Source of the DNA: Arcobacter sp. F2176
GTDB lineage: Bacteria > Campylobacterota > Campylobacteria > Campylobacterales > Arcobacteraceae
Assembly: GCF_004116465.1 (NCBI RefSeq)
Contig: NZ_PDJV01000005.1
Coordinates: 124,001 to 188,000, forward strand
Length of the DNA: 64,000 bases
Reading direction: 5' to 3'
The position numbers and the translations under genes were made by a program. Numbering within the stretch: the stretch's first letter is position 1; every line of letters starts with the position of its first letter. Positions 12,709 through 22,194 of the stretch are shown one piece after another. The notes under the pieces are model-generated. The model was not told the DNA's origin. It ran no database searches and saw only the letters and a program-made list of their open reading frames with translations.

Positions 12709-14271
12709 ATGTCATTATTTGATAATACAGCCTGTAGCTCATGTTTAACTCTTAGAGAATTAACAACACTTTATGAAATCTCAGCAGTAATATCAAATCA
12801 TTATGATTTGGAAACTTCCTTAGAAAAATCTATAAAGATTTTGAAAAATAGTTTAAATCTTACAAACTGTACAGTTCATATTTTAGAAGAGGATTTACTT
12901 ACAGTATTTGCATCAGTTGAATTATCAACTATTCAAAAAAAACTATCAGTTTATAAAGTGGGTGAAGGAGCAACAGGTGTTGCTGCTTTATCTAAAGAAC
13001 CAGTTGTTGTGGAAAATATTCACAATGATTCACTATTTTTAAACAAATCAGGAAAAAGAGATTTTTCAAATCTTTCATATGTAGCTGTTCCTTTAGTTGT
13101 TGAAAATGAAACTGTTGGTGTTTTGGGTGCTGCTCTTACTAAAAGTACGGAAATAGGATTTGAAGATTGTGTAAGAATACTTACAATTATTGGTTCAATA
13201 TTTGCACAAACTATCTACTCTTATCAATTAAACATAAAAGAGAAAGAAAGATTAGAAGATTTGAAATCATATTATAAAATGGAATGGGACTCAAAGGTTC
13301 ATAACTTCGGAGATATCATTGGAGATAGTCCAAAGATGAAACAAGTTTTTCAAGTAATACAAAGAATAGCCCAATCAGAAGTTACAGTATTAGTAAGAGG
13401 AGAGACAGGAACTGGTAAAGAGCTAGTTGCTGCTGCAATTCATAAAAGAAGTAAAAGAGCAAATGAGCCTTTTATTAAATTGAACTGTGCTGCTATTACT
13501 GATACCTTACTTGAAAGTGAACTTTTTGGTCATGAAAAAGGTGCCTTCACAGATGCAAGGGAGACTAGAAAAGGAAGATTTGAATTAGCAGATAAAGGAA
13601 CTTTGTTCTTAGATGAGATAGGTGATATTTCATCTTCTGCTCAAGTAAAACTTCTAAGAGTCTTACAAGAGAGAGAGTTCGAAAGAGTAGGTGGAAGTAA
13701 GACTATTAAAGTAAATGTTAGACTAGTAGCTGCTACAAATAGAAACCTAGAGCAAATGGTAAAAGAGGGAAAATTTAGAGAAGATTTATATTATAGATTA
13801 AATGTAATACCAATTGATTTACCACCACTTAGAGAAAGAGGTGATGATATAAAACAACTTGTAAATTTCTTTTTAGAAAGAGCAATCAAAAACCATAAAA
13901 AAAATGTAAAAATATTAGATGAAGCAATGGAACTTTTAGCTTCTTATCCTTGGCCTGGAAATGTAAGAGAACTAGAAAATACCATGGAGAGAATTGTTTT
14001 AATGGGCAATGAAAATGGTATAGATAGTTTTGATATGTCACTTCTTCTTCCTGCACTTGAAAAAGGGAAATTAGAAGATAAACCAATAGCTTCTTCAAAA
14101 CAAGCAAGCCATAAAAAAAGCCTAGAAGATATGGAAAAAGAAGCTATAACAGAAGCTTTAATTGCAAATAACTTCAACCAATCAAATGCAGCAAAAGAGT
14201 TAGGAATAACACTTAGACAAATGGGTTATAAAATCAATAAATATGGAATAACAAATGAACTACAAGAATGA
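12709..14271 (+). CDS. nifA: NifA, sigma-54-dependent transcriptional activator of nitrogen fixation
   Basis: A three-domain enhancer-binding protein of 520 residues. A GAF domain spans about 15-175, with the NifA-like stretch GATGVAALSKEPVVVENI and DSLFLNKSG. The AAA+ domain spans about 200-440, with Walker A GETGTGKE at 231-238, the sigma-54 loop as GAFTDA at 278-283, and Walker B GTLFLDEIGD at 297-306. A Fis-type HTH lies at the end (NQSNAAKELGITLRQMGYKI), close to NifA C-termini. The loop has Asp where most activators have Gly (GAFTGA). A CxxC pair lies at Cys9/Cys12, before the GAF domain. The interdomain cysteine motif of alphaproteobacterial, oxygen-sensing NifA is not seen. The gap of 81 bases after nifT may hold its own promoter (TATACT near 12681). 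The stop overlaps the next gene by 17 bases. Confidence 0.87.
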   Translation: MSLFDNTACSSCLTLRELTTLYEISAVISNHYDLETSLEKSIKILKNSLNLTNCTVHILEEDLLTVFASVELSTIQKKLSVYKVGEGATGVAALSKEPVVVENIHNDSLFLNKSGKRDFSNLSYVAVPLVVENETVGVLGAALTKSTEIGFEDCVRILTIIGSIFAQTIYSYQLNIKEKERLEDLKSYYKMEWDSKVHNFGDIIGDSPKMKQVFQVIQRIAQSEVTVLVRGETGTGKELVAAAIHKRSKRANEPFIKLNCAAITDTLLESELFGHEKGAFTDARETRKGRFELADKGTLFLDEIGDISSSAQVKLLRVLQEREFERVGGSKTIKVNVRLVAATNRNLEQMVKEGKFREDLYYRLNVIPIDLPPLRERGDDIKQLVNFFLERAIKNHKKNVKILDEAMELLASYPWPGNVRELENTMERIVLMGNENGIDSFDMSLLLPALEKGKLEDKPIASSKQASHKKSLEDMEKEAITEALIANNFNQSNAAKELGITLRQMGYKINKYGITNELQE

Positions 14272-14767
14272 AGAGTTTGAACTCATTGATGAATTTATAG
14301 ATGTGGGATATATGGCTGAAGATATTGAAGCTGTAGATTTACAAGGTAATGAATTAATTATAAAAAAAGCAAGTCCAAATAGAATGATTCAGATCTTTTT
14401 ATCATTTCCAAATTTTGAAGATTTTAAAAAAGAAATTATAGCTTTTGATGAGTTTATGAATGATGCAAAAGTTGAGATTTTTACTTATTTGATATTTAAT
14501 AAAAAGATTGATTTTGACTATAAGTTTAAAAAAATACTTCCTGTTTTTGATATCAATGAAGATTATGCAAATATGTATGGAACAAAAATAATAAGTGGCA
14601 CTTTAAAAAACTGTTTAACAAAAGCCTTATTTTTAGTTGGCAAAGATGGAGCTATTTATCATATTGATATGCCAGATGATTTATCAAAGCCTTTAGACAT
14701 GGATAGAATAAGAATTGAATTAAATAAGGTTTACCAATCATATACAGGAGTTGGGTGTCATGGATAA
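14255..14767 (+). CDS. Thiol-peroxidase-like (redoxin fold) protein lacking the catalytic cysteine
   Basis: A 170-residue soluble protein. Its layout follows Tpx-type peroxiredoxins: a strand-rich N-terminus, IQIFLSFPNFEDFKKEIIAF where Tpx has the FPSIDT-x-x-C active site, a central VFDINEDYANMYGTKI, and a late TKALFLVGKDGAIYHIDMP. At the active-site position there is no cysteine. The only cysteines are Cys139-region NCLTKALF and a C-terminal GVGCHG. Either it is a non-catalytic redoxin relative, or the C-terminal cysteine has taken on a role. It overlaps nifA by 17 bases (ATG at 14255) and so is translationally coupled to it. Family assignment is by my own pattern reading and is moderate; a regulatory or protective role toward nitrogenase is inference. 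Confidence 0.5.
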   Translation: MNYKNEEFELIDEFIDVGYMAEDIEAVDLQGNELIIKKASPNRMIQIFLSFPNFEDFKKEIIAFDEFMNDAKVEIFTYLIFNKKIDFDYKFKKILPVFDINEDYANMYGTKIISGTLKNCLTKALFLVGKDGAIYHIDMPDDLSKPLDMDRIRIELNKVYQSYTGVGCHG

Positions 14768-14774
14768 TAAAAAA

Positions 14775-14815
14775 AGCTACAAGACTCTCATCTTGTAGCT
14801 AATTGATTTTATTTT
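14775..14815 (+). terminator. Rho-independent terminator after the nifA unit
   Basis: AGCTACAAGA (14775-14784) and TCTTGTAGCT (14791-14800) form a perfect 10-bp stem with a 6-base loop, preceded by an A-run and followed by a T-rich stretch. It lies 8 bases after the stop of the redoxin-like gene and can serve both strands. Confidence 0.85.
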
Positions 14816-14864
14816 ATTTTTATTTTTTATATTGTTAAGTCAAAAGACCATCAAAATTTTAAAT

Positions 14865-15143
14865 TTATTTACCAATCTTATTAGCTATAAATTCAATATC
14901 CTCATTACTTAATGGCATAGATTGGACTTTCATCATTGCTTTTAAAGCCCCACCATAAGTTCCATTTTTGTAGCCAATTAGTGCAGATTTTATATCTGCC
15001 TTTGACATCTCATTAATAATTAATGATTTACCATTTAAAGCTGATTTATCTCCATTTTCTCCATGACAAACTATACATTTTCCATAAGGATTTGCATAAG
15101 CTAAAGAGGCAATAAAAAGAGAAAAAACTAATGCCTTTTTCAA
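14865..15143 (-). CDS. Small periplasmic class I cytochrome c (cytochrome c553 type)
   Basis: A 92-residue precursor with signal peptide MKKALVFSLFIASLAYA and a single haem site CIVCH right after cleavage. A distal methionine candidate lies in MMKVQSMPLS, followed by the C-terminal helix IEFIANKIGK. It is a monohaem electron carrier of about 75 mature residues. Its promoter carries the same direct repeat as the torA promoter (see 15186-15201), so it is probably co-regulated with the TMAO reductase system and may carry electrons for it. Confidence 0.85.
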   Translation of the reverse strand: MKKALVFSLFIASLAYANPYGKCIVCHGENGDKSALNGKSLIINEMSKADIKSALIGYKNGTYGGALKAMMKVQSMPLSNEDIEFIANKIGK

Positions 15144-15169
15144 ATAATTCTCCTTTCTTTTAATAAAAA

Positions 15170-15201
15170 ATTATATGAAATTTTTGTGGCGAAATGGTGG
15201 C
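15170..15201 (-). promoter_or_regulatory. Promoter of the cytochrome c gene with OmpR-type direct-repeat operator
   Basis: On the minus strand GCCAC occurs twice at 11-bp spacing (plus-strand GTGGC at 15186-15190 and 15197-15201), followed after exactly 10 bases by TATAAT (15170-15175). The repeats lie where a -35 box would be. The same geometry is found upstream of torA at 21259-21290. Confidence 0.65.
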
Positions 15202-15222
15202 ATTTTGGTCTTTGTAGAGTAT

Positions 15223-15864
15223 TTAGAAGGTTTTTATTTCATATCCAAAGTGCTGTGAAACTATCATCCCATCTGGAAGTTTTACTCTTAATCTTTTAAT
15301 CATAGATCTAATTCCAACTGAAGTTGTCATTTCTCCTTCCCAAACATAATCTTCTATATACTCTAAAGGCGTCATTTTATTTTCATGTTTAATTAAAAGG
15401 GATATAAAGCGTCTCTCTTTTCTTGTAAGTTTTACCGCTTCTTTGTTTTCATCAAATAATGTTTCTGAACTTAAATTATATGTATAATTAGCTAATAGAT
15501 TTTTTTCTTCTCCCAGATGACATAATTGTTTTATTTTTGTCTCTAACTCATACATATAAAATGGCTTTTTTAAAAAGTCATTGCATCCATTTGAATATGC
15601 TTTTTTTACATTTTCTAATTCAAAGTTTGCACTTATAATTATTGCAGGGGTTGTTTTATCTCTATTTCTTATCTCTTTTAACAATGAAATTCCATCTACA
15701 TTTGGGACATTTATATCTAAAATAAAACAATCAAATCCATCTATACAATGGTCAAGTGCATCTAATCCATCATTAAAACTTGATACTTCATATCCAATAT
15801 CTTCTAATTCTTCTGTGATTAATTCTAATAAACTTTCATTATCTTCTAATATTAAAACTTTCAT
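15223..15864 (-). CDS. OmpR/PhoB-family response regulator (likely TorR-like)
   Basis: A 213-residue regulator. The receiver domain (1-115) has the acidic pair in LILEDNESL, the phospho-acceptor in FDCFILDINVPNVDG, and the conserved Lys in FLKKPFYMYE. The C-terminal winged helix (about 130-213) includes KLTRKERRFISLLI and GIRSMIKRLRVKLPDG. It directly follows the sensor kinase gene (adjacent coordinates), so they form a pair. It lies in a minus-strand run starting with torA, and the direct repeats found at both Tor-region promoters are the type of site OmpR-family regulators bind. Ligand and target are inferred from context. Confidence 0.9.
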   Translation of the reverse strand: MKVLILEDNESLLELITEELEDIGYEVSSFNDGLDALDHCIDGFDCFILDINVPNVDGISLLKEIRNRDKTTPAIIISANFELENVKKAYSNGCNDFLKKPFYMYELETKIKQLCHLGEEKNLLANYTYNLSSETLFDENKEAVKLTRKERRFISLLIKHENKMTPLEYIEDYVWEGEMTTSVGIRSMIKRLRVKLPDGMIVSQHFGYEIKTF

Positions 15865-18021
15865 CTAATCCCTTTCTATATTCAAAGGTAGTAATATCTC
15901 TATATTTGCACCATTTTCTGTATTGAAAGCGTTTATTACACCATGCATTTTATTTTCAATAATAAGTTTTGCCATATACAAACCAAAGCCATCACCATTT
16001 TTTTTATTAGTATAAAAAGCTTCAAAAAGATGTTTTAATGCATCAGCATCAAATCCTTTCCCATCATCAATTACACTTAAATTAATATAAGTTGCATTTC
16101 TAGAAAGTAAAATCATGATTTTTCCACTCTTTTTAAACTCTCTTGATAATATAATTGAATCTTTTGCATTGTTTATTATGTTTAGTAAAACTTGTTTAAA
16201 CTCATTTGGATATCCAAAAAGACTATATGAACTATCTAAGTTATTAACATATTCTAATTGAATATTGTTATATTTTAATGAACTATCAAGTATTGTCTCA
16301 ATTTCATTAATTCCTTTATCAATATCAAAAAGTACTGGTTTATTAGATGGTTTGATAAATTGTCTAAATTCATCTATTGTATCACCCATATAAATGATTT
16401 GTTTCATAATAGTATCAAAAAATCCATCCATATTCTCTTTACTTAATTTATCTTTTTTGTAATAACTTTGCATTTTATGGGCAACTACTGAAAGTTCAAT
16501 TAGTGGTACCTTCCATTGATGCACAATAGCTGAAAGCATTTCTCCAACTTCTGTTAGTTTTGATTGTTGGATTATAAACTGTTTATTGATTTCAAGTTGT
16601 TTCTTTTCTGTTATATCAGTAATAATTGTTACTGTTCCACTATCTTTTCCATTTTCATCATAATATGTTTTACTTCTTGCAAAAAAGGAATTATTATTAT
16701 AAACAAATTCAATATCTTCATCAATAGATATTTTTTCTTTTGTTATTACTGTGCAAAATGGTTTAAAAACATCACAAATATAAAGACCAATTCCATCTTT
16801 CCCATTATAAAATATTTTTGAAAAAGATCGATTATGACCTCTAATATATCCATTTATATCAATCCAAAACACTGCACTTTTTACATTATTTAAAAGAACT
16901 TGTTCTCTTTTATTTTCAGCTATCAATTGTTTTGACAATTTATCTCTTTTATAAATATTTATAAGTGCAAGAACTAAGAAAAATAGAATAAAAGGGGAGA
17001 TTATAAATATTCTATAAATCCAAATTTTATATTTTTCAAAAAATGTTTCTGGTTCATTTATAAAAATTGAACCTGAAGGGACTAAATTTGTATTTAAGCC
17101 ATATTTTTCCATAACTTTATAATCATAAACATATTGGGTATGTGCCAATATTGGTTTTGTATAATCAACTTTCTTACCTTGCATAATTTCAACAGCCCTT
17201 TTACCAGCTTCATAGCCAACATAATAACCTCTCAATAAATGACCTCCAATAACTCCTTTACCTAAGTGATAATCAGTCATAGAAAATACAGGAACAGGAG
17301 AGTTATTTAAAAGTTTATTGACTTTTAAAAAAGGTATATAGTTTTCATTTTCATTAAGATATAAATTTCCAAACCAAACTGCACTATTTTTTGGAAGAGT
17401 TTTAAAATCTTTATATATTTGAGAAATATTCCCATCTAAATATAATTTATAATCAATTCTATTTTTAAAGCTATCTAATTTTTCTTTTATTATTTTATTA
17501 ATCATTTCAGAAGTATAAGTTTTATCATTTATAACATATAAATATTTTAAATCAGGCATTACTTGCAAGATTGCTTCAATGCCACTTTTTAAAGGTTTAT
17601 GCTCCAGTATTAAGCTAATTTTATCTTTTAATACTTTAGTAACATCAATACCCGGATTCATCTCTTCAATTCCAGTAAAGACTAAAGGAGTATTTTTAAA
17701 CAGTTCATTTTTATGTTTTAACACAAATTGAACAGCTGCATTATCTGCTGCGATAACAATATCAAATTTTTGTTTTTTGAATTTTTCTATGTAAGCTTGT
17801 CTAATAAGTTTGTGATACTCTTTATTTTTATTTCTTTTATTATCTAAATATTCCGTAGAGAGTTCATAATCAGGAAGTACTTTTAAAGAATCATCAATAC
17901 CTTTGGAAATATTTTCACTCCAAACTAAGCCTTTATTATATGAATGTAATAATAATATATACTTTGATGATGCACTTAAAGAAGAGACAATAAAAAATAT
18001 TAAGAATAACTTTTTAAACAT
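15865..18021 (-). CDS. Sensor histidine kinase with periplasmic ABC substrate-binding-like domain
   Basis: I place the start at 18021, where MFKKLFLIFFIVSSLSA forms a signal anchor and an AAAAAGG ribosome-binding site precedes; the frame is also open to an ATG at 18078. The periplasmic part (about 20-310) resembles the ABC-substrate-binding-like domain (LLHSYNKGLVWSENI, GVIGGHLLRGYYVGYEAG). A membrane helix (about 330-350) and a PAS-like domain follow. The kinase core has an H-box in SAIVHQWKVPLIELS, an N-box LLNIINNAKDSI and G-boxes DDGKGFDADAL and NGDGFGLYMAKLII. It belongs to the HisKA subgroup with the HQW motif common in Campylobacterota. It probably senses the substrate of the adjacent TMAO-reductase system (Tor), doing in one protein what TorT and TorS do separately elsewhere; this is inferred. 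Confidence 0.85.
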   Translation of the reverse strand: MFKKLFLIFFIVSSLSASSKYILLLHSYNKGLVWSENISKGIDDSLKVLPDYELSTEYLDNKRNKNKEYHKLIRQAYIEKFKKQKFDIVIAADNAAVQFVLKHKNELFKNTPLVFTGIEEMNPGIDVTKVLKDKISLILEHKPLKSGIEAILQVMPDLKYLYVINDKTYTSEMINKIIKEKLDSFKNRIDYKLYLDGNISQIYKDFKTLPKNSAVWFGNLYLNENENYIPFLKVNKLLNNSPVPVFSMTDYHLGKGVIGGHLLRGYYVGYEAGKRAVEIMQGKKVDYTKPILAHTQYVYDYKVMEKYGLNTNLVPSGSIFINEPETFFEKYKIWIYRIFIISPFILFFLVLALINIYKRDKLSKQLIAENKREQVLLNNVKSAVFWIDINGYIRGHNRSFSKIFYNGKDGIGLYICDVFKPFCTVITKEKISIDEDIEFVYNNNSFFARSKTYYDENGKDSGTVTIITDITEKKQLEINKQFIIQQSKLTEVGEMLSAIVHQWKVPLIELSVVAHKMQSYYKKDKLSKENMDGFFDTIMKQIIYMGDTIDEFRQFIKPSNKPVLFDIDKGINEIETILDSSLKYNNIQLEYVNNLDSSYSLFGYPNEFKQVLLNIINNAKDSIILSREFKKSGKIMILLSRNATYINLSVIDDGKGFDADALKHLFEAFYTNKKNGDGFGLYMAKLIIENKMHGVINAFNTENGANIEILLPLNIERD

Positions 18022-18096
18022 ATAAGCCTTTTTTATAAAATATAACTCTATTTTAACATATCCAGTAGGTTTCTTCAAATAGAAGAAACCATAAAT

Positions 18097-18660
18097 TTAT
18101 TGTTCTTGAAGATATTTTTCTATTTTCATTCTTTCATCTTTTGTAAGCCCAGCTTGTGGTGCCATATTATTTAAAATACTTGGCCATACATTTGGGATAA
18201 ATTCCTCTTTATGATGAATATCATGACATACACCACATTTCGCCTCAAACATATTTTTACCTTCTGCTATAATTTTAGTTTTATCATTTGTTAAAGAATC
18301 ACTTATAATATAACCTTTTATTAAAACTTCAAACCATTCATTATCATACTCATCAACTTTTTTTCCGATAATTTTATAATCAGCAAAATCTTTACCTTCA
18401 AAACCAGTGATTAAAAAACCTGCTTTTTCATAAACTGTTGGGCTATCTTCAGGAGCATAACCAATAAATTCTACTTTTGTTAGATTACCTTCTTTTGAAA
18501 GAACTTTTAAGTGCGAAGCCACAATTAAATCACCAATAACCTCTTTTTTATTTACATCTTTATACAATTTTGTATTTTGAGATAAATATGCTGTATCAGC
18601 AGCTACACCAAGTGTAACAACTGATACTAAAACCAATAATATTTTTCTTAAATTTTTCAT
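18097..18660 (-). CDS. Monohaem c-type cytochrome partner of the TMAO/DMSO reductase
   Basis: A 187-residue secreted protein (MKNLRKILLVLVSVVTLGVAADT) with one haem motif CGVCH near residue 140 and a downstream MAPQAGLTKDERMKIEKYL tail holding a likely Met ligand. The first ~120 residues (SH3-like, containing DKVEYDNEW-type strands) precede the haem domain. The arrangement matches the Campylobacter jejuni reductase/cytochrome pair Cj0264c/Cj0265c, where the cytochrome donates electrons to the periplasmic reductase. It starts at the base after the torA stop, so the two are coupled. Confidence 0.85.
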   Translation of the reverse strand: MKNLRKILLVLVSVVTLGVAADTAYLSQNTKLYKDVNKKEVIGDLIVASHLKVLSKEGNLTKVEFIGYAPEDSPTVYEKAGFLITGFEGKDFADYKIIGKKVDEYDNEWFEVLIKGYIISDSLTNDKTKIIAEGKNMFEAKCGVCHDIHHKEEFIPNVWPSILNNMAPQAGLTKDERMKIEKYLQEQ

Positions 18661-21180
18661 CTAAGCTCCTTTTATTTTTGGAGCTTTAAATATTCCAATA
18701 GCTGGAATCTCTCCATCAAATTTTTCAATTTCAACAAGTGCAGTTGCTTGATTTCCTTGAGCAAGACTTGAAGTTCCTTCATCAGGAATTAATACATTAA
18801 CATCACCATGTCTACATAAAGTACCAGGTTCTCCTGCTTCAGTTGGATCATACCAAGCTCCCTCTTGCATTCGTACTGCACCTTTTTTTACAAATTCAGT
18901 TACTACTGCACCCGCTAAGATTTGCCCTCGTCCATTAAATACTCTTACAACATCACCATTTTTTATACCACGTTTTTTTGCATCATCAGTATTTAACCAA
19001 ATAGGTTCTCTTCCATTTACTTCTTCAAGATGTCTAATCCAAGTATTATTCAATTGAGAGTGAAGTCTATATTTAGGATGTGGCGTAATTAAATTCAATG
19101 GATATTTTTCAGCTTTTTTAGAACCTACCCATTCCATTGGTTCAAACCACATAGGATGTCCTTTACAATCATCATAACCATAACTTGCCACTTTTTTTGA
19201 GAAAATCTCAATTTTTCCAGATGGAGTTCCAAGTCTATTAATAATTGGATTTTTTCTAAATTCTTCAAATCTTATGTATTTTTTTGCGATTTCTGGAGTT
19301 TCAAATTCACAAAATCCTTTTTTCCAAAATTCATCAAAAGTAGGCATTTTCACTCCAGAACTTTGTGCTTTTTTATATGAAACTTCATAGAAGTGTTTAA
19401 TCCATCCCATTTTGTCTCTACCTTCTGTGAAAGCATGAACATGCTCTTTAGAGAAATGTTCTAATATTCCAGTAAAAATATCAAAATCATCTTTCACTTC
19501 TGCATATGGTTTAGATACTTGTTTCATAGCAAAAATAAAACTATTTGAATGAGCTTTTGCGATATCATTTCTTTCTTGCTCTAGTGTTGAAGGAAGAATA
19601 ATATCTCCCATTCTAGCAGTTGCAGTCCAGAAGGCATCTTGTACAACAAATGTTTCTAATTTTCTATATGCTTTAATCATTCTATTTCTATCTTGGTGAT
19701 GGTGGAAAGGATTTCCTCCTGCCCAGTATGCCATTTTGATATCTGGATATTTAATTATTTTCCCATCAAATTTTATCTCTTTTCCTGGATTTTCTAAACA
19801 CTCAACAATTCTAGAAACAGGGATAACTGGAACTTTATTATCTTTCCATGGTCCATCAATTGTTGTTTTTCTTCCTATTCCACCAAGTCCAGGAGAAGCA
19901 GAAAGTCCATTTTTTTCACTTTTAGAACCTTTTTCACTTTGAGCATTTCCTGTTGCAGCAGCTGGCATTGGAACACCATTTCCAGAATAATGATAATTAC
20001 AAGAGTATCCCCCACCAGGTAATCCAATATCTCCAAGCATAGTTGCAAGAGTAATTAACATCCAGTTTGGTTGTTCCCCATGATGAGCTCTTTGTGTAGA
20101 CCATCCTCCCATTAACATTGTTCTTTTTGAAGCAAATTCTTTTGCTAACATTTTAATTACTTCAGCATCAACACCACAAATTTTAGATGCCCATTCTGGA
20201 GTTTTTTCAATCATATCTTCAGTTTTACCAATTAAGTATTGTGAAAATTGTTTAAATCCATAAGTACATTTTCTCAAAAATTTCTCATCATGTAATTTAT
20301 TAGTATAAAGATAATGAGCTATTCCAAGCATCAAAGCAACATCCGTTGTAGGATTAATTTTAATATGCTCTGCATCAAAATACATACCAGTATTATTATA
20401 AACAGGGTCAATTATATAAAATTTTAATCCTCTTTTTTTAGCTTGTGCTTTTAACTCTTTTAAATAAGTATATGTTTTATGATCTGGAACACCCCATGCA
20501 ATTTGATTTGTATTTACAATATCAGCACCCCAAAATACAATACATTCAGAATTTTCAATTAATACTGGATAAGCAGTTGGTCTTGCAGTAGATTCATCTG
20601 TTCCTACAATATAAGGAGTAATTTGTCTAATAGCATGTGTTGAATATGTACAAGTTCTTGAAGTGTATCCACCTGTTAAATGAAGCATTCTTCCTAAAAG
20701 TGCTTGAGGATTATTTAATGATCCTACACAATACCAACCATAACTTCCTCCATAAATGGCTTCATCACCATAATCTTTATGTGTTCTTTTAATTTCATTA
20801 GCAACTAATTCTAAAGCTTTTTCCCATGAAACACGAACAAATTTATCTTTACCTCTTTTTGATTTATCACTTTTATATCCATTTTTAAGATAATCTTCTC
20901 TAACACACGGGTAAAGAATTCTATCTTCTGCATATGTTCTTGCTGGAAGTGCGTTTATCAAAGAAGATGGATATTCATCACCTTTAAATGCTTCCACACC
21001 TTCAAATCTTGAGTTTTTATCTCTTGCTCTAAATGCGCCAAAGTGAGAAGCACTCATCTCTAAAGGTTTATCATTAAATAAACTTTCACCAACTAATGGT
21101 ATTGCATGAGCTTGGACTACTGCAGCTGCAGCAACTGTACTTGATTTTAAAAATGTACGTCTATTCATTCCATTTTCCAT
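18661..21180 (-). CDS. torA: Periplasmic molybdopterin TMAO/DMSO reductase (TorA/BisC family)
   Basis: An 839-residue precursor with a Tat signal (NRRTFLKSS at 6-14). It lacks an N-terminal [4Fe-4S] cysteine set, as in TorA/DorA/BisC. The molybdenum ligand is a serine (Ser180, CTYSTHAIRQITPYIVGT), the hallmark of the TMAO/DMSO group. Other family stretches are YGGSYGW, LTGGYT, GGWSTQRAHHGEQPNW, AYWAGGNPFHHHQDRN and the C-terminal LNTDDAKKRGIKNGDVVRVF. It reduces TMAO and/or S-oxides as a terminal electron acceptor, fed by the cytochrome encoded next. An OmpR-type operator lies upstream at 21275-21290, and the kinase/regulator genes follow in the same orientation. Confidence 0.93.
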   Translation of the reverse strand: MENGMNRRTFLKSSTVAAAAVVQAHAIPLVGESLFNDKPLEMSASHFGAFRARDKNSRFEGVEAFKGDEYPSSLINALPARTYAEDRILYPCVREDYLKNGYKSDKSKRGKDKFVRVSWEKALELVANEIKRTHKDYGDEAIYGGSYGWYCVGSLNNPQALLGRMLHLTGGYTSRTCTYSTHAIRQITPYIVGTDESTARPTAYPVLIENSECIVFWGADIVNTNQIAWGVPDHKTYTYLKELKAQAKKRGLKFYIIDPVYNNTGMYFDAEHIKINPTTDVALMLGIAHYLYTNKLHDEKFLRKCTYGFKQFSQYLIGKTEDMIEKTPEWASKICGVDAEVIKMLAKEFASKRTMLMGGWSTQRAHHGEQPNWMLITLATMLGDIGLPGGGYSCNYHYSGNGVPMPAAATGNAQSEKGSKSEKNGLSASPGLGGIGRKTTIDGPWKDNKVPVIPVSRIVECLENPGKEIKFDGKIIKYPDIKMAYWAGGNPFHHHQDRNRMIKAYRKLETFVVQDAFWTATARMGDIILPSTLEQERNDIAKAHSNSFIFAMKQVSKPYAEVKDDFDIFTGILEHFSKEHVHAFTEGRDKMGWIKHFYEVSYKKAQSSGVKMPTFDEFWKKGFCEFETPEIAKKYIRFEEFRKNPIINRLGTPSGKIEIFSKKVASYGYDDCKGHPMWFEPMEWVGSKKAEKYPLNLITPHPKYRLHSQLNNTWIRHLEEVNGREPIWLNTDDAKKRGIKNGDVVRVFNGRGQILAGAVVTEFVKKGAVRMQEGAWYDPTEAGEPGTLCRHGDVNVLIPDEGTSSLAQGNQATALVEIEKFDGEIPAIGIFKAPKIKGA

Positions 21181-21258
21181 TTTATTCTCCTAGATTTAAA
21201 ATTAATTTAATAACTTAAAAATTAATGAATTAATTTTTTAGTTTAATAATTTAATGTA

Positions 21259-21290
21259 ATTATAAATTAATGCTGTGGCGAAAATGTGGC
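21259..21290 (-). promoter_or_regulatory. torA promoter with OmpR-type direct-repeat operator
   Basis: The plus strand reads TGTGGCGAAAATGTGGC. GTGGC repeats at 21275-21279 and 21286-21290, 11 bp apart. On the minus strand a TATAAT (21259-21264) follows the repeat after exactly 10 bases. The spacing matches the cytochrome promoter at 15170-15201, with the repeats overlapping the -35 position, as for an activator. It is about 80-110 bases upstream of the torA ATG. Confidence 0.7.
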
Positions 21291-21318
21291 AAAATAGTAA
21301 ATTTAAAATCATAATATT

Positions 21319-21336
21319 AGGGAACGGTTTTTGCAT
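21319..21336 (+). promoter_or_regulatory. Sigma-54 promoter of the SIR2-like - clpX unit
   Basis: AGGGAACGGTTTTTGCAT has GG at 21321-21322 and GC at 21333-21334 with 10 bases between, in the form GGAAC-N5-TTGC. It lies 35 bases upstream of the ATG at 21370 and diverges from the torA promoter. No TGT-N10-ACA upstream element was found between 21181 and 21320. Confidence 0.75.
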
Positions 21337-21369
21337 AGTAGTTAATTAAATATTACTATAGGATATTTA

Positions 21370-22194
21370 ATGGAAGATATAGTAGAAAAATTAAAAAATG
21401 GATCGATGGTACCATTTCTTGGTATGGGTGTCTTTGAAAAAATACAAGCAAAAGATGGTAGTCAGTTGCCATATGATAGTGATTCGATGATTTTAGCTTT
21501 AAATAATGGAAGAGCTATGAGCCCAAGACTTATGTATGAATATTCAAGAGCTGCCATGAGTTTAGAGCAGAGAAAAGGTAGAGAGTTTATTGTTCAAATG
21601 ACAAACCACATCTATAGTTCCAAAGAGTATGATTTGCCTAAAGTTTATACTTGGTTAAAACAAATCAAACCCAAATATGTAATTGATACAAATCTAGATG
21701 ATAGTTTACAAAAAATCTATAGTGATGTTGAACACTTCTTAATAACTGGGGTTTCTAGAATAACTGCTGATTATGATAGATTTATTATTTATAAATTTGA
21801 TGTGAGTAAAAATGCCTATGAAAAGATAGAAAAAGAGGCTTTAACTTTAGATTTGCCAATTTTATTTAAACCTATGGGCTCAACAAAACCTGAGATGAAC
21901 TTTATCATCTCTGATGCTGATTTTGTGGATTGGTTAACTGAAGCCATGGGTGGATTTGCTATGCCTCCTATTTTAAAAGATTTTAGAAAAGACAAAGAGT
22001 ACCTTTTTATGGGTGTTGATTTTTCTAAAGATACTTTTAGAATGGTTGCAAATGAAATAACAATGGATTTAAAAGGTGGGTTTGCTATATTTAATAAACC
22101 TGAACTAACAAAAAAAGAGGATAAATTTATCAAAACTCATAATTTAGAAAATTTAAATTTGAGTTTAAATGAGTTTATAAATAACTATGCCTAA
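21370..22194 (+). CDS. SIR2-like domain protein, nif-linked, lacking the catalytic histidine
   Basis: A 274-residue soluble protein. The N-terminal NGSMVPFLGMGV resembles the nucleotide-binding start of bacterial SIR2-like (SIR2_2) proteins. The order of later segments also fits: KPKYVIDTNLDDSLQKIY (family: TTNYD), ILFKPMGSTKP (family: KLHGS) and EYLFMGVDFSKDTFRMVANEI (family: FLGYSxxDxxxR). The catalytic His of the KLHGS box is Met here, so NAD hydrolysis or deacylation by the usual mechanism is doubtful. It is headed by a sigma-54 promoter and overlaps clpX by 8 bases, so it is coupled to it. Role unknown; an adaptor or redox/NAD-sensing role in nitrogenase assembly is speculation. Confidence 0.6.
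   Translation: MEDIVEKLKNGSMVPFLGMGVFEKIQAKDGSQLPYDSDSMILALNNGRAMSPRLMYEYSRAAMSLEQRKGREFIVQMTNHIYSSKEYDLPKVYTWLKQIKPKYVIDTNLDDSLQKIYSDVEHFLITGVSRITADYDRFIIYKFDVSKNAYEKIEKEALTLDLPILFKPMGSTKPEMNFIISDADFVDWLTEAMGGFAMPPILKDFRKDKEYLFMGVDFSKDTFRMVANEITMDLKGGFAIFNKPELTKKEDKFIKTHNLENLNLSLNEFINNYA

Follow-up and report, generated by a model that had tools for sequence, protein, structure and literature searches.

A tandem GCCAC operator predicted to link a torA-type reductase cluster and a small cytochrome c to an OmpR/PhoB-type regulator in Arcobacter sp. F2176

We analyzed a 64,000-nucleotide stretch of the Arcobacter sp. F2176 genome (the window), to which all positions refer unless another locus is named. 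The minus-strand gene order is torA, a torB-like gene, a sensor kinase gene, a response regulator gene, and then, after 79 bases, a gene for a small cytochrome c. These genes and the associated features are as follows.

14776-14801, no strand assigned: hairpin AGCTACAAG-N8-CTTGTAGCT between the cytochrome gene and a convergent gene, read from the sequence by eye; the probable terminator shared by both genes
14865-15143, minus strand: small monohaem c-type cytochrome, 92 amino acids, TTG start, signal peptide (PF00034; member of a clade adjoining torA homologues)
15170-15175, minus strand: -10 box TATAAT of the cytochrome promoter, exactly 10 bases after operator 1
15186-15201, minus strand: operator 1, GCCAC-CATTTC-GCCAC, direct repeat with a period of 11 bp ahead of the small cytochrome gene (sequence, pattern search)
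15223-15864, minus strand: response regulator of the OmpR/PhoB type, with both operators as its predicted binding sites (Pfam domains, comparison)
15865-18024, minus strand: sensor histidine kinase with a periplasmic ABC_sub_bind (PF04392) sensor domain (Pfam), directly abutting the regulator gene
18097-18660, minus strand: TorB-like monohaem cytochrome, matching only the C-terminal part of the E. coli pentahaem TorC
18661-21180, minus strand: TorA-type periplasmic molybdopterin S/N-oxide reductase with a Tat signal (model matches)
21259-21264, minus strand: -10 box TATAAT of the torA promoter, exactly 10 bases after operator 2
21275-21290, minus strand: operator 2, GCCAC-ATTTTC-GCCAC, the corresponding direct repeat ahead of torA (sequence, pattern search)

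The torA product scores above the cut-off of the family model TIGR00509 (bisC_fam; 1024.5 bits, cut-off 1017.55) and below those of the equivalog models PRK15102 (908.1 against 909) and TIGR02164 (870.2 against 1465). Because PRK15102 is missed by one bit, TMAO is only a probable substrate, and the sequence marks the enzyme as a probable TMAO reductase. The TorB-like protein aligns to positions 206 to 377 of the 387 in the TorC model. The regulator contains a receiver domain (86.2 bits, cut-off 30.2) and a Trans_reg_C winged helix (31.7 bits, cut-off 26.2). With its fused PF04392 domain, which is also found in at least one paralogous system, the kinase may, as a single protein, do the work that E. 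coli divides between TorT and TorS. In the cluster of one relative, G100 (L099 7364-8702), no kinase gene lies between torB and the regulator gene, and the operator upstream of torA is retained.

A first-pass annotation of this DNA had described two GCCAC half-sites at 11-bp spacing, followed 10 bases later by TATAAT, at both torA and the small cytochrome gene, and this description is exact. The cytochrome promoter reads GCCAC-CATTTC-GCCAC-aaaaatttca-TATAAT and the torA promoter GCCAC-ATTTTC-GCCAC-agcattaatt-TATAAT; OmpR/PhoB-type regulators use tandem direct repeats with a period of about 10 to 11 bp, and at the level of sequence both sites have this form, with an 11-bp period. The two promoters are about six thousand bases apart, and the regulator gene does lie between them, as do the genes for the kinase, the TorB-like cytochrome, and torA. 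Operator 1 starts 21 bases past the stop codon of the regulator gene and lies 42 bp from the start of the cytochrome gene, with an AAGGAG between the -10 box and the start codon; operator 2 lies 94 bp from torA. That operator 2 also controls the divergent SIR2-like gene is unsupported, because the gene beside torA differs in both orthologous clusters described below.

Two short motifs in AT-rich DNA might resemble each other by chance, and the shortness of the motif is the one point that favors such a reading. Genome counts run contrary to it. In pattern searches, with expectations taken from word frequencies observed in the window, exact GCCAC-N6-GCCAC occurs 3 times in the 3,271,724-base genome against 0.25 expected; two copies are in the window, and another, with TAAATT after N10, precedes lrgA-lrgB. 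A scan for the repeat placed 10 bases from a -10 box, which the first-pass annotation had proposed, returned exactly two GCCAC-N6-GCCAC-N10-TATAAT sites, both at this locus, against 0.0003 expected. When up to three mismatches were allowed, 20 sites were found in the genome, versus 3 for the reversed pattern.

We also varied both spacings across 104 genomes of the family, using the half-site RMCAC and TATAAT. Among the matches listed, 36 of 150 have spacings of 10 (repeat to -10 box) and 6 (between half-sites). The same cell holds 23 of the 102 matches listed after removal of near-duplicates, with an average of 1.6 in the other 48 cells, and 12 of the 23 listed in which at least one half-site is GCCAC. 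The next-highest cells, (8,6) and (12,4), contain repeated near-identical sequences that resemble another operator and coding sequence. In the intergenic regions of the retrieved loci, some of them picked by motif, there were 11 sites at (10,6) and at most 2 in any other cell. This geometry peak, the genome counts, the conservation of the sites, and the control promoters presented below all bear out the earlier judgment that coincidence is unlikely; a chance likeness is scarcely credible, and we rejected it on the geometry peak and the comparison of promoters with controls. A second geometry peak consists of AACACTTAATTAACACT or a sequence near it, followed by 8 bases and TATAAT (G000:C6:40044-40073); sites of this type also stand at matching places in G001, G092, G095, G116, G027, and G010.

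An orthologous cluster is present in only two other genomes of the family, G027 and G100, with torA 85% identical and the regulator 74 and 68% identical. The torA promoter reads GACAC-N6-GCCAC-N10-TATAAT in G027 and GACAT-N6-GCCAC-N10-TATAAT in G100. We then compared promoters from loci that encode a regulator of this clade, a set of 12 reductase promoters (reached via the regulator or torA, not the motif) plus the window cytochrome promoter, which also takes in another family of the order. The (10,6) site is present in 12 of these 13, a set in which the window itself was chosen by motif and which amounts to fewer than 13 independent cases because several of the loci are closely related (L101, L104, and L107; likewise L316 and L320). 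The thirteenth promoter, at L106, reads GACAA-N6-GCCAA-N10-TAAACT and overlaps a mechanically called (mis-called) start codon. Among torA-type promoters beside other regulators (about 30% similar), by comparison, the site occurs in 0 of 14. These controls include Sulfurospirillum, in which torA (71 to 76% identical) and torB adjoin an unrelated two-component system with a regulator at about 30%, and in which no (10,6) site was found at the torA promoters. The site therefore goes with the regulator and not with the reductase, and the notion that the motif is torA's own is ruled out by the Sulfurospirillum and other torA promoters without it.

Half-sites differ among subclades and paralogous systems (GCCAC, GACAC, GACAA, GCTAA), and both spacings are constant. 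Regulators of the clade have in common the recognition helix pattern IRxxxKRxR; the helix IRSMIKRLR is common to the local regulator and to paralogues with GCCAC-type sites at dicarboxylate-transporter operons. Around other clade members, which flank other kinds of genes, no site with this half-site was found, and the operator rule is accordingly limited to reductase- and transporter-linked members. Together, these comparisons support assignment of the operator to the regulator clade. They also uphold the operator reading of the first-pass annotation, in that the site is kept at torA in both orthologous clusters, is absent at similar torA genes beside an unrelated regulator, and recurs in its geometry at paralogous regulators.

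The near-identity of the paralogues' recognition helices to that of the local regulator also bears on which protein acts here: a paralogous regulator (e.g., that on C32, beside a dicarboxylate-type transporter) or a common one might govern the cytochrome promoter or both promoters, with the local regulator not the main one. Transporter operons carry GTCAC-N6-GCCAT in this genome, upstream of the DASS transporter on C32, and GCCAC-N6-GCCAC in G011 and G100. GCCAC-type sites are also borne in this genome by lrgA and a GltP/DctA-type gene, the latter as GCCAC-N6-GACAC, which recurs upstream of an S21 ribosomal protein gene. Given these similar sites of paralogous systems, cross-talk is possible, and the torA-linked regulator is perhaps not the sole binder. 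However, the spacer before the second half-site has TTTC in both window sites and at torA of G027, whereas transporter sites mostly have ACTAA, a difference that may separate the operators of the respective regulators, and torA loci without this regulator clade are without the site. We therefore consider control by a paralogue improbable, though worth keeping in view, and favor the local regulator.

Many promoters of the form (A/G)CCAC-N6-GCCAC-N10-TATAAT were seen in G096 and G018 (L095, L172, L173, L174, L175), which suggests a larger regulon with the same code. In one case (L172 9109-9185), three tandem GCCAC-type repeats stand ahead of a hybrid kinase gene.

The product of the small cytochrome gene is a class I cytochrome (PF00034, 22.3 bits, cut-off 21.3) with a CxxCH haem site, and among solved structures those of cytochromes c553 come closest to it. 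A tree of 52 relatives places it with six others at 94/99 support, a grouping that rests on few columns and whose bootstrap of 94 is just below the usual cut-off. A torA homologue lies within 1.5 kb in 4 of the 6 other clade members versus 0 of 44 checked relatives outside the clade, many of these loci being covered with a 1.5-kb flank only. The order torB-torA-cytochrome recurs in G107, G108, and G011, and in G233, which belongs to another family. This genome encodes further, housekeeping-type paralogues, two of them beside methylaspartate mutase genes; with these additional copies elsewhere, the present copy looks specialized. The repeated position of the clade beside torA homologues supports the idea that the small cytochrome supplies TorB/TorA with electrons and, with the perfect site, favors the earlier prediction that its gene is a member of the torA regulon.

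The cytochrome site could instead be a leftover or duplicated torA promoter without a present role, the cytochrome being made by readthrough or being itself a housekeeping carrier. Indeed, the arrangement of site plus cytochrome gene is seen in this genome only, neither of the other orthologous clusters having it: in G027 a second site lies downstream of the regulator gene, followed by a hairpin instead of a cytochrome gene, and in the G100 cluster no second site was found. For this reason the cytochrome promoter is unconfirmed in a second genome. Against a leftover copy, both half-sites and TATAAT are perfect, a start codon with AAGGAG follows close behind, and G027 retains a second site in the corresponding position past its regulator gene. 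In addition, the linker and spacer differ between the two window sites, so the cytochrome site is no recent copy of the torA promoter. A site without function seems quite improbable, and we favor a promoter in current use.

The hairpin in G027, immediately past the second GCCAC-type promoter and with no cytochrome gene behind it, has counterparts in other relatives, in which a long hairpin separates torA from the small cytochrome gene. Its stem is built around AAAGRYGRTAY..RTAYCRYCTTT, and its loop is often C/U-rich, such as TTCTCCTTC. The tor-linked hairpins are as follows.

L098, 11263-11331, plus strand
L179, 11074-11147, plus strand
L177, 8193-8307, minus strand
L256, 3230-3295, plus strand
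L257, 6296-6363, minus strand

With stems registered by hand, 9 of 19 stem pairs have two-sided changes. Strong matches to a model of the hairpin, found in 14 genomes, fall almost exclusively at these loci, and a comparison with Rfam gave no match. The element may be a small RNA or an intercistronic stabilizer. It is absent from the window, and we did not count it as part of this finding.

The layout of both window sites is known from another regulator. The E. coli phoA promoter, whose pho-box sequence we located upstream of phoA in E. coli records, reads GTCAT-AAAGTT-GTCAC-ggccgagact-TATAGT and has the same 5-6-5-10 arrangement, with an 11-bp direct repeat standing where the -35 box would be and 10 bp separating it from the -10 box. 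There, PhoB occupies two such 11-bp repeats in tandem and interacts with sigma at the -35 position (PMC4415409; PMC3348028). The half-sites differ, being GCCAC in the window and GTCAT/C in the pho box, and the window regulator is linked to S/N-oxide respiration. Against the PhoB model TIGR02154 it scores 67.9 bits, far under the cut-off of 296.2; it would work like PhoB but is not PhoB.

Like E. coli TorS-TorR, the locus pairs a torA-type reductase with a two-component system whose OmpR-family regulator acts, or here is predicted to act, at direct repeats; it differs in the ligand-binding-type sensor domain fused to its kinase. The regulator falls below the cut-off of the TorR model NF008034 (60.3 bits against 275), as does the kinase for the TorS model (40.1 against 676.5). 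The E. coli tor box is CTGTTCATAT (PMC9239176), and no match with up to two mismatches was found in 20654-21589 and 13095-16224, which cover both promoters. These scores and the absence of the tor box rule out an E. coli-type TorR system. Within the phylum, Sulfurospirillum RR2 is likewise an OmpR-family regulator tied to anaerobic respiration, that of PCE; at pceAB, CTATA repeats with 6-bp gaps overlap the -35 box, as shown by gel shift, and the working consensus in S. multivorans is CTATW-N17-CTATW (PMC7755780). The CTATW-N6-CTATW form, searched with N6 only, had no match with up to one mismatch at the window torA and cytochrome promoters. In the literature on Arcobacter and Campylobacter TMAO regulation, as searched, we found no description of the GCCAC operator. 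From its sequence it appears to be a novel operator of a layout type already known (the pho box); its predicted targets are torA and the cytochrome.

In Campylobacter jejuni, TorA-TorB (Cj0264-Cj0265) is supplied with electrons by QcrABC; what the small cytochrome CccA contributes could not be tested there (PMC6195509). As in the window, TorA is paired in that organism with a soluble cytochrome equivalent to the C-terminal domain of TorC, without the NapC-type quinol dehydrogenase domain (PMC6195509). In contrast to the C. jejuni locus, the one in the window includes its own dedicated two-component system and a small cytochrome gene preceded by the operator also present at torA. A co-induced small carrier would, we infer, fit the gap left by CccA in the C. 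jejuni picture.

We consider it likely that both GCCAC-N6-GCCAC sites are operators of the 15223-15864 regulator and that they jointly drive the torA cluster and the small cytochrome carrier. In the mechanism we propose, the kinase (15865-18024) would detect a ligand in the periplasm, probably an S/N-oxide such as TMAO, and phosphorylate the regulator. Two regulator molecules would then bind the 11-bp repeat head to tail in the place of a -35 box and recruit sigma-70 RNA polymerase to the TATAAT 10 bp downstream; by analogy, the regulator would be a class II activator. Operator 2 would drive torA, torB, the kinase gene, and the regulator gene, hence positive autoregulation, and operator 1 would start a short second transcript with the small cytochrome alone. 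The small cytochrome would in this way be made along with the reductase, probably in excess of it, and would probably relay electrons from menaquinol-cytochrome c reductase to TorB and TorA.

The operator offers a sequence code for a large, uncharacterized set of two-component systems in the phylum. On a broader reading, to which we give an even chance, this Campylobacterota regulator clade and its kinases with fused periplasmic-binding-protein sensors have expanded system by system, with a fixed layout and a changing half-site and spacer, and have here captured a dedicated, TMAO-induced carrier of c553 type. If this is true, each regulator copy drives its own reductase or transporter, and only the half-site and spacer change. 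Because the small cytochrome is separate from the housekeeping-type copies and bears the operator of the reductase, a single deletion could address the carrier question.
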